DNA of 64,000 nucleotides from Thermus oshimai DSM 12092 (lineage in GTDB: Bacteria > Deinococcota > Deinococci > Deinococcales > Thermaceae), in NCBI RefSeq assembly GCF_000373145.1, contig NZ_KB890620.1:1-64000 (forward strand), given 5' to 3'. Shown piece after piece: positions 38,871 through 51,575 of the stretch. The notes beneath the pieces are model-generated. The model did no database searches and had not been told where the DNA came from. It saw only the letters and a list, made by a program, of their open reading frames with translations. Position 1 is the first letter of the stretch. Each line of letters opens with the position of its first letter. The position numbers and the translations under genes are program-made.

Positions 38871-38902
38871 AACTTGAAACCCCCCGGTTGGCCCGGGGGG
38901 TT
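38871..38902 (-). terminator. Attenuator terminator of the ilv-leu operon
   Basis: Minus strand: perfect 10-base stem AACCCCCCGG/CCGGGGGGTT with loop GCCAA (38902-38878), then TCAAGTTT. It lies between the leader-peptide stop and the ilvB ribosome-binding site. A GGGGGGT run inside the leader-peptide codons (38940-38934) can pair with the ACCCCCC arm, giving a possible antiterminator. Confidence 0.75.
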
Positions 38903-38922
38903 ATGGGATGCGCCCTAAAGCG

Positions 38923-38991
38923 CTACGCCCTACCCCCCGCTGGCCCTACGATTAGGACCAGGGCTAGGGATAGGGCGAGTCCGGAACGCAT
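38923..38991 (-). CDS. Leader peptide of the ilvB operon (22 aa, Leu/Val/Ile-rich)
   Basis: ATG 38991 to TAG 38925-38923. After MRSGLA the centre reads LSLALVLIV; eight of 22 residues are Leu, Val or Ile. Leucine is encoded by CTC, CTA, CTA, CTG and CTA and the last valine by GTA; CTA and GTA look rare next to the CTC/CTG and GTG that dominate neighbouring genes. The start lies only 10 bases after the -10 box, so it is translated from almost the first base of the transcript. Position, composition and the following terminator fit a transcription-attenuation leader that senses branched-chain aminoacyl-tRNA. Confidence 0.8.
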   Translation of the reverse strand: MRSGLALSLALVLIVGPAGGRA

Positions 38992-48223: not shown

Positions 48224-48310
48224 TGGTGCCGGGGGCGGGACTTGAACCCGCACGCCCTTGCGGGCACATGACCCTGAATCATGCGCGTCTACCAATTCCG
48301 CCACCCCGGC
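48224..48310 (-). tRNA. tRNA-Leu (anticodon CAG)
   Basis: 87 bases including an encoded CCA. The acceptor GCCGGGG (48310-48304) pairs with its complement at 48234-48228. The anticodon loop TTCAGGG gives CAG, and the long variable arm (TGCCCGCAAGGGCG) is that of a leucine tRNA. It is divergent from the leuCDB leader. Confidence 0.96.
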
Positions 48311-48323
48311 AGACGCAAGGGTC

Positions 48324-48352
48324 ATTGTAGGGGAGGTGGCTTCGCTCGTCAA
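48324..48352 (-). promoter_or_regulatory. Promoter of tRNA-Leu
   Basis: TTGACG (48352-48347), a 17-base spacer and TACAAT (48329-48324), the same arrangement as the tRNA-Gln promoter. Its -35 is back to back with the -35 of the leuC operon. Confidence 0.8.
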
Positions 48353-48354
48353 GC

Positions 48355-48384
48355 TTGACCCCGCGGGCCTCGAGGGCTTACCCT
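48355..48384 (+). promoter_or_regulatory. Promoter of the leuC-leuD-leuB operon
   Basis: -35 TTGACC (48355-48360), an 18-base spacer and TACCCT (48379-48384). ATG of the leader peptide follows 8 bases later. The two -35 boxes form a perfect palindrome GTCAAGCTTGAC at 48348-48359. Confidence 0.7.
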
Positions 48385-48392
48385 TAGGGGCA

Positions 48393-48440
48393 ATGCGGCG
48401 GGCGGTGATTCTAGTCCTAGACCGGGCGGGCCCGGTCTAG
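48393..48440 (+). CDS. Leader peptide of the leuC operon (15 aa)
   Basis: ATG 48393 encodes MRRAVILVLDRAGPV and stops at TAG 48440. The VILVL block uses GTG, ATT, CTA, GTC, CTA, with two CTA leucine codons. The stop lies at the end of a strong hairpin, and a terminator follows. A leucine-rich leader in this place is also known from T. thermophilus leu genes, as I recall. It fits attenuation. Confidence 0.78.
   Translation: MRRAVILVLDRAGPV
48417..48440 (+). promoter_or_regulatory. Pause/antiterminator hairpin of the leuC leader
   Basis: Perfect 10-base stem CTAGACCGGG/CCCGGTCTAG with loop CGGG, starting at the last CTA leucine codon. Its GGGCCCGG part is complementary to CCGGGCCC inside the terminator, so an alternative antiterminator pairing is possible. 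Confidence 0.65.
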
Positions 48441-48457
48441 GGATGGCCGTCGCGTAT

Positions 48458-48487
48458 CCCCCGGGCCCCAAAGGACCCGGGGGTTTT
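48458..48487 (+). terminator. Attenuator terminator of the leuC operon
   Basis: CCCCCGGG (48458-48465) pairs with CCCGGGGG (48476-48483), loop CCCCAAAGGA, then TTTT. It ends 16 bases before the leuC ATG. Confidence 0.8.
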
Positions 48488-48503
48488 GCGTAAGGGGGGT
48501 TTC

Positions 48504-49922
48504 ATGGGAAAGACGCTCTACGAGAAGGTTTGGGAAGCCCACGAGGTGAGGAAGCTCAGAAACGGCCAAAGCCAGCTCTTCATAGACCTCCACCTCCTCC
48601 ACGAGGTCACGAGCCCCCAGGCCTTCGGGATGCTCAAGGACCTTGGCCTTCGGGTACGCTACCCCCACCGCACCTTCGCCACCGTGGACCACATCGTCCC
48701 CACCCACGACCGCACCGAGCCCTTCCAGGACCCTCTGGCCCAGAGCATGCTGGAGGCCCTCAGGGCGAACACAAGGGAGCACGGCATCACCTTCTTTGAC
48801 CTGGGGAGCGGCAACCAAGGCATCGTCCACGTCATCGGGCCCCAGCTCGGCCTCACCCAGCCCGGGATGACCATCGCCTGCGGGGACTCCCACACCTCCA
48901 CCCACGGGGCCTTCGGGGCCGTGGCCTTCGGCATCGGCACGAGCCAGGTCCGGGACGTCCTCGCCACCCAGACCCTCGCCGCCCAAAAGCTCAAGGTGCG
49001 GCGGATCAACGTGGAGGGAAGGCTCGCCCCCGGGGTCTACGCCAAGGACGTGATCCTCCACATCATCCGCCACCTGGGGGTGAAGGGGGGCTTGGGCTAC
49101 GCCTATGAATACGGGGGAAGCGCCGTGGAGGCCATGGACATGGAAAGCCGCATGACGCTTTGCAACATGTCCATTGAGGGCGGAGCCCGCATCGGCTACG
49201 TGAACCCCGACGAGACCACCTTCCAGTACCTCGAGGGCCGCCCCTACGTCCCCAAGGGGCCTGAATGGGAGGAGGCCAAGAGGAGGTGGCTCGCTTGGCG
49301 CTCCGACCCCGACGCCTCCTACGACGACGTGGTCACCTTCCGCGCCGAGGAGATCGCCCCCACCGTCACCTGGGGCATCACCCCGGGCCAGGCCATCCCC
49401 ATTGACGGCAGGATCCCCCTCTTGGAGGAGTTGCCGGAGGAGGAGCGCCCCGTGGCCGAGGAGGCTTTGGCCTACATGGGCTTCAGGCCAGGCCAGCCCA
49501 TCAAGGGGGTGCCCATCCAGGTGGCCTTCATCGGAAGCTGCACCAACGCGAGGCTTTCCGACCTCCGGGAGGTCGCCCGCTACCTCAAGGGGCACAAGGT
49601 GAAGAAGGGGGTGCGGGCCCTGGTGGTGCCGGGCTCGGAGTGGGTGGCGAGGAAGGCCGAGGAGGAGGGGATCGCCGAGGTCTTCCGCGAGGCGGGGTTT
49701 GAATGGCGGATGCCCGGCTGCTCCATGTGCCTCGCCATGAACCCGGACCGGCTGGAAGGGGACGAGCTTTGCGCCAGCAGCTCCAACCGGAACTACAAGG
49801 GACGCATGGGAAGCCCCAGGGGCCGCACCGTCCTCATGAGCCCCCTCATGGTGGCGGCGGCGGCCGTGGCCGGGGAGATCGCCGACGCCCGGGAGGTCTT
49901 CGGCCTGGCGGGCGTCCGCTGA
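48504..49922 (+). CDS. leuC: 3-isopropylmalate dehydratase large subunit
   Basis: Aconitase-family [4Fe-4S] enzyme, 472 residues, pairs with LeuD. The cluster cysteines are in GSCTNARL and [30 protein letters not shown] and [15 protein letters not shown] are family motifs. ATG 48504 ([15 protein letters not shown]) with AAGGGGGG upstream is preferred to the earlier TTG 48486, which overlaps the terminator T-run. 472 residues is the usual bacterial LeuC size. Confidence 0.97.
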
Positions 49923-49935
49923 GGAGGGAAAAGCC

Positions 49936-51575
<1,640 letters not shown>

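Follow-up and report, generated by a model that had tools for sequence, protein, structure and literature searches.

A predicted leucine-specific, ribosome-mediated transcription attenuator upstream of leuCDB in Thermus

Results

Anatomy of the leuCDB leader

How might Thermus oshimai adjust transcription of its leucine genes to the supply of leucine? An earlier note on the window (the whole stretch of 64,000 nucleotides analyzed here) had proposed that an attenuator with three alternative hairpins lies before leuCDB, a cluster whose T. thermophilus counterpart, leuC-leuD-leuB, was reportedly described by Tamakoshi et al. in 1998. We examined this locus by comparing it among relatives and by modeling the folds of its RNA. 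Its features, all on the + strand, are as follows.

48355..48360, +: -35 box TTGACC, unchanged in 27/27 Thermus with a spacer of 17/18
48379..48384, +: -10 box TACCCT, position kept; TAGGCT in most Thermus
48391..48393, +: predicted transcription start, placed from the 8-nt gap between -10 box and ATG; 5' UTR of 0-2 nt
48393..48440, +: leader ORF MRRAVILVLDRAGPV, ATG at 48393, 15 codons plus stop TAG; CTA..CTA and TAG in 27/27 Thermus
48411..48413, +: predicted control codon 1 (CTA, Leu7), unchanged in 27/27 Thermus, outside the 1:2 stem
48417..48419, +: predicted control codon 2 (CTA, Leu9), invariant, in arm 1, paired to the TAG stop when hairpin 1:2 forms
48416..48426, +: segment 1, the 5' arm of protector hairpin 1:2 (11-bp stem, double changes at 2 pairs)
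48428..48441, +: segment 2; 3' arm of 1:2 at 48431-48441, antiterminator 5' core GGGCCCGG at 48428-48435
48440..48460, +: inner portion of the longer antiterminator, where GGGAT (48440-48444) pairs with ATCCC (48456-48460) in the predicted fold of RNA freed by a ribosome stalled at the first CTA
48461..48468, +: segment 3 core CCGGGCCC, antiterminator 3' side, overlapping the terminator 5' arm and loop
48458..48487, +: predicted intrinsic terminator 3:4, stem CCCCCGGG...CCCGGGGG (48458-48483), then TTTT (48484-48487)
48494..48499, +: leuC Shine-Dalgarno-like GGGGGG (GGGAGGG in most Thermus)
48504..49922, +: leuC (NCBIfam TIGR00170), ATG at 48504 kept in all relatives
49936..50541, +: leuD (NCBIfam TIGR00171)
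50538..51575, +: leuB (NCBIfam TIGR00169)

Most of the anatomy in the earlier note stands as it was drawn: the 15-residue ORF runs from the ATG at 48393 to the TAG ending at 48440, the G+C-rich terminator with TTTT occupies 48458-48487, the last CTA (48417-48419) lies on the first hairpin in a conserved position, and GGGCCCGG is able to pair with CCGGGCCC. The perfect 10-base hairpin at 48417-48440 likewise holds and becomes 11 bp once C48416:G48441 is added. In the window the promoter spacer between TTGACC and TACCCT is 18 nt. A simple promoter/terminator scan missed both + strand signals at this leader, the terminator because the scan requires five T and the tract in the window has four.

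Within 48224-48360 of the window, a divergent tRNA-Leu(CAG) gene adjoins the leu promoter, its minus-strand -35 box TTGACG abutting the leu -35 box in GTCAAGCTTGAC; this neighbor is present in about half of the Thermus species and missing in the others.

Conservation within Thermus

We located leuC in 27/27 Thermus genomes and examined the region upstream of each. All 27 share a promoter, an ORF of 14-15 codons whose ATG begins exactly 8 nt past the -10 box, two fixed CTA codons, TAG, a hairpin, and a C/G terminator, and the two in-frame CTA codons, the stop, and both 2:3 partner cores are unchanged throughout. The mutually exclusive pairings proposed from the single sequence are conserved in one layout across the genus. 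The peptides differ (e.g., MRRGILLDLGRAGPV, MRRGFLLDLGRAGPA, MRRSALLRLNRAGPV, and MRRRIALTLGRAGPA) around the two constant CTA codons, and one leader (L017) has lost exactly one codon with its frame intact. Among 111 genomes of the order, a leader-plus-hairpin pattern matched the 27 Thermus genomes and zero others, about once per Thermus genome and at no locus other than leuC; the reversed control pattern gave 0 matches, and in three genomes the palindrome of the pattern also matches on the opposite strand.

One genome (G018, contig C4, 1354-2850 and 2013553-2015051) carries a second copy of the leader and leuC, fragmented and near the contig start, which may stem from overlapping ends left unmerged in a circular assembly.

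The T tract after the terminator hairpin is retained in 26/27 Thermus. Two leaders, L009 (G014) and L057 (G049), have an intact attenuator hairpin and have lost the tract (GGGGGATCGTG and GGGGGGATGCG, respectively); termination there may be weak or replaced, possibly with a switch to another mode of control.

Pairing evidence

Hairpin 1:2 (48416-48441, 11 bp) folds at -21.2 kcal/mol (z -4.7, equaled by 0/200 shuffles), and the terminator fold (48458-48483) at -21 kcal/mol (z -2.3). Across 21 distinct Thermus leaders, 99.6% of cells in the 1:2 stem are paired, slid controls bring pairing down to 6-70%, and the two variable stem positions change compensatorily (GC/AU/GU). RNAalifold applied to the Thermus alignment recovered 1:2 along with part of the terminator and an uncertain, partially supported outer stem formed by codons 2-6 with the spacer.

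Energies alone are uninformative for the 2:3 pairing because the region is very G+C-rich. In the window this pairing is not outstanding by energy, as 12/200 shuffles fold equally well; none of 18 Thermus tests of segment 2 versus segment 3 duplex energy against composition-preserving shuffles was significant (0/18), and a state test of 2:3 energy gave p<0.05 in 16/26. The case for 2:3 pairing is accordingly one of between-species comparison and modeling rather than of energy statistics. The first two bases of the terminator loop, CC, are constant in 27/27 Thermus, with 17 variants after position 2; since this CC is needed only to pair with the GG of segment 2, it is the cleanest sign of 2:3 within the genus. 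The proposed 1:2, 2:3, 3:4 logic is thus borne out and conserved, with weaker energy statistics for 2:3 owing to G+C content.

Modeled ribosome states

In our state model the ribosome masks 13 nt beyond the A-site codon. With the ribosome at CTA7 (A site 48411), RNA is free from 48424, and a stall there before segment 4 exists yields an extended 2:3 fold of -28.1 kcal/mol that pairs 48428-48435 with 48461-48468 and, further inside, GGGAU with AUCCC. When the ribosome sits at the stop (48438), it covers RNA up to about 48450, and 3:4 alone forms, whereas in the ribosome-free model 1:2 and 3:4 form together. These modeled folds agree with the two states predicted for the switch, 2:3 upon stalling and only 3:4 with the ribosome at the stop. 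Across species, the stalled state retains at least five 2:3 pairs in 67/68, and 3:4 persists with the ribosome at the stop in 66/68. At 65 C, 2:3 (-15.3) is still stronger than 1:2 (-12.3) and 3:4 (-12.5). For the window sequence, 3:4 is favored in every modeled state once segment 4 is complete, implying that the switch would have to be kinetic, as in classical attenuators.

The same folds bear on whether the structures chiefly govern how ribosomes reach the leuC Shine-Dalgarno, which would make the attenuator translational rather than transcriptional. C-rich segment 3, when engaged in neither 2:3 nor 3:4, could bind this G-rich element (48494-48499), and L009 and L057 keep the hairpin without a T tract. 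However, the element lies outside the stem in every aligned species and is mostly unpaired in the modeled folds, and the T tract follows the hairpin in all but one of the 27 Thermus leaders, which leaves translational attenuation improbable and favors control through termination.

A predicted leucine signal read at CUA

Using a common promoter-plus-ORF rule we recovered 69 leaders from five families, in which CTA accounts for 122/179 leucine codons; 68/69 contain at least one CTA and 60/69 end in TAG. In the 17 genes of the window, which served as the baseline for codon usage, CTA makes up 20/561 leucine codons (3.6%), so this rare codon is enriched about 19-fold in the leaders. CUA is decoded by tRNA-Leu(UAG), and among the class II tRNAs examined the tRNA-Leu genes comprise one each of CAA, CAG, GAG, TAA, and TAG. 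Val and Ile positions vary freely among leaders (GILLDL, GFLLDL, ALTL, SALLRL). Of the VILVL block singled out by the earlier note, then, the pair of CTA codons is conserved but the block as a whole is not. Because the CTA pair is conserved and Val and Ile are not, leucine appears to be the signal, read at CUA, and the leader should sense it via single-copy tRNA-Leu(UAG).

Leaders beyond Thermus

Other Thermaceae genera (Meiothermus, Calidithermus, and others) have a different leuC leader, such as MPTRVKQPLLSPASGV or MRHRIGLLNLNPPTPWA, with CTA and mostly TAG; their switch sequences have changed yet match one another, as in GGGGUC:GACCCC. In the sister family f4, perhaps Oceanithermus/Marinithermus-like, leaders such as MTYARALTLIPPPRG pair CGGGGG:CCCCCG, and family f5 has longer leaders. 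What the analysis shows directly is the anatomy, how it is conserved, and that the pairings exclude one another and change compensatorily from genus to genus. No comparable leader was found upstream of leuC genes of 65-72% identity in Verrucomicrobia and a handful of phyla further removed, and no Deinococcus was noticed in the genomes retrieved by order, class, and phylum searches.

An ordinary constitutive terminator, next to which a short ORF arose by chance in DNA rich in G+C, would account for some of these features, given that strong hairpins are common at such composition and that shuffled 2:3 segments pair well too. It would not explain CTA codons and a stop that are invariant in 27 species, a single-codon deletion that keeps the frame, CTA enrichment of about 19-fold, the compensatory changes, or the matching pairings re-invented in other genera, and we consider it highly unlikely. 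We judge equally small the chance that another RNA sensor (a T-box, a riboswitch, or a ppGpp- or protein-bound leader) operates here with the ORF as a by-product. The partly supported outer stem could belong to such a larger fold, but between genera there is no sequence conservation outside the ORF and hairpins, the constraint acts at the codon level and so points to translation, and no Rfam family reaches threshold here, the weak matches being irrelevant. Rfam searches, run both at the gathering threshold and with E relaxed to 10, placed no leader, T-box (RF00230), or riboswitch over the leuC leader.

One deviating leader, L054 (G046), reads CTG GTA where CTA CTA would be expected and has a TGA stop, and additional sequence ahead of its leuC contains a second hairpin; it is possibly a decaying or rebuilt attenuator.

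In non-Thermus Thermaceae (L035-L056), a palindrome, TTTGGTATACCAAA, lies between the -35 box TTGACG and the -10 box TATACT of leuC. The exact palindrome occurs in 20/22 genomes of three non-Thermus genera, with one extra site (G031:C1:165981), and is absent from every Thermus genome searched. It looks like the putative operator of a leucine repressor, a second control layer that would have been lost from Thermus or never present there.

A probable leaderless start

The gap between -10 box and leader ATG is 7-8 nt in 47/49 Thermaceae leaders with a promoter found; in the remaining 2/49 it is 5 nt under the script's alternative choice of -10 box. In family f4 it is 9-10 nt in 11/12. No usually spaced ribosome-binding site lies between the -10 box and the leader ATG in Thermaceae or f4 leaders. 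Such a short gap without a ribosome-binding site suggests that the transcript begins at the AUG or a few bases from it, and the leader mRNA is probably leaderless. In Deinococcus deserti, about 60% of genes are reported as leaderless.

Proposed mechanism

The leuCDB leader thus contains a short ORF with codons for the product of the pathway, mutually exclusive pairings, control codons placed to influence them, and a terminator before leuC. Together with the comparative and modeled evidence, this makes it very probable that the leader is a classical, ribosome-mediated transcription attenuator specific for leucine. We infer the following course for transcription start, stalling, termination, read-through, and leucine regulation at leuCDB. 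RNA polymerase would start on the A of the leader AUG or on a neighboring base, and a ribosome would load on the 5' end. When leucine is plentiful, both CUA codons would be read and the ribosome would get to the UAG stop, where it would cover segment 2, or hairpin 1:2 would capture segment 2 after release; with segment 2 unavailable, 3:4 would form and transcription would end upstream of leuC. When Leu-tRNA(UAG) is scarce, the ribosome would stall at CUA7 or CUA9, opening hairpin 1:2, and the freed segment 2 would pair with segment 3 ahead of segment 4 synthesis, such that leuCDB is transcribed. An untranslated leader would adopt 1:2 plus 3:4 and give low expression. In many species the second CUA pairs with the UAG that ends its own ORF, so that the predicted sensing codon and the switch hairpin share bases.

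The ilvB leader in the same window

The window also contains a leader before ilvB (MRSGLALSLALVLIVGPAGGRA, about 38923-38991, minus strand; terminator about 38879-38905), which agrees with the claim of two attenuators on one pathway within 10 kb. Its codons include CTA three times, CTC, CTG, GTC, ATC, and GTA, and a C/G hairpin and a T-rich tail lie downstream. The leader is kept in 20/20 other Thermus genomes examined, with the core CTATCCCTA..CTGGTCCTAATCGTAGG almost invariant. Like the leuC leader it is CTA-rich and followed by a hairpin, but it is longer, differs in sequence, and contains Leu, Val, and Ile codons, suggesting that it is probably multivalent and reads all three amino acids.

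Discussion

A close functional parallel is the leu attenuator of E. coli and Salmonella (leuL; RF00512): in both, a leader peptide precedes leucine genes, the control codon (predicted in Thermus) is CUA, and the logic uses three hairpins. The E. coli leu leader is longer than the 15 codons of the Thermus leader. Furthermore, the Thermus leader is without detectable similarity to enterobacterial leuL in sequence or structure, has only two CUA codons and no leader Shine-Dalgarno, and precedes leuCDB rather than leuABCD. Membership in Rfam RF00512 (Leu_leader) was rejected, with no match at the gathering score and none up to E = 10. Selective-charging theory and Salmonella mutants single out CUA as the sensitive codon (PMC1183508), and the same source cites Carter et al. 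for the Salmonella leu leader becoming less sensitive when CUA is changed to CUG. The Thermus leader would be convergent with the CUA-rich enterobacterial leader.

Mycobacterial polycysteine ORFs share with the Thermus leader a leaderless short ORF (predicted in Thermus), but their amino acid is cysteine, and they reportedly operate without a classical terminator/antiterminator pair. These leaderless short ORFs are described, in a paper citing the original study, as amino-acid-responsive attenuators (Canestrari et al. 2020, cited in PMC9031893). In Corynebacterium glutamicum, the ilvBNC leader encodes 15 residues, its transcript starts one nucleotide before the AUG, and its three-hairpin model is backed by mutants (PMC11857589). 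The Thermus leader resembles it in length, three-hairpin model, and predicted leaderless start, whereas ilvBNC has Val, Leu, and Ile control codons, a different target, and a different phylum, with no sequence similarity noted. The LEU element of actinobacterial leuA likewise places a Leu-rich leader peptide before a leucine gene, but it features a pseudoknot and no obvious terminator, and Streptomyces mutants are inconsistent with classical attenuation (PMC1262725).

In earlier surveys, leader-peptide attenuators belong to Proteobacteria and Actinobacteria, with Firmicutes as an addition (Naville and Gautheret 2010, PMC2965389), and the amino-acid leaders of Rfam are essentially gammaproteobacterial (Sun et al. 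2013, PMC3766115). We found no paper on a Thermus leu attenuator in the open-access literature; older subscription papers may mention one.

The chances appear evenly balanced that the attenuator is ancestral to the whole order (Thermaceae plus sister families), with an origin independent of the proteobacterial and actinobacterial ones, a leaderless mRNA, and CUA as the sole conserved control codon, layered in Meiothermus and Calidithermus with a promoter operator, TTTGGTATACCAAA, that is absent in Thermus. The mechanism itself is textbook, but such switches are hardly documented in this heat-loving order, which lives at temperatures at which RNA hairpins are marginal. Order-wide, sequence-diverged leaders in the Thermus lineage suggest a greater age of the device, or more frequent origins, than surveys indicate, and a CUA codon fixed in bacteria that are not related to enterobacteria would put selective-charging theory (PMC1183508) to an independent test. 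With a predicted Leu-only attenuator at leuC and a predicted Leu/Val/Ile attenuator at ilvB on one pathway of a genetically tractable thermophile, specificity would be directly testable; the breadth of the leaders, the fixation of CUA, and the paired ilvB leader would make Thermus a good test case.
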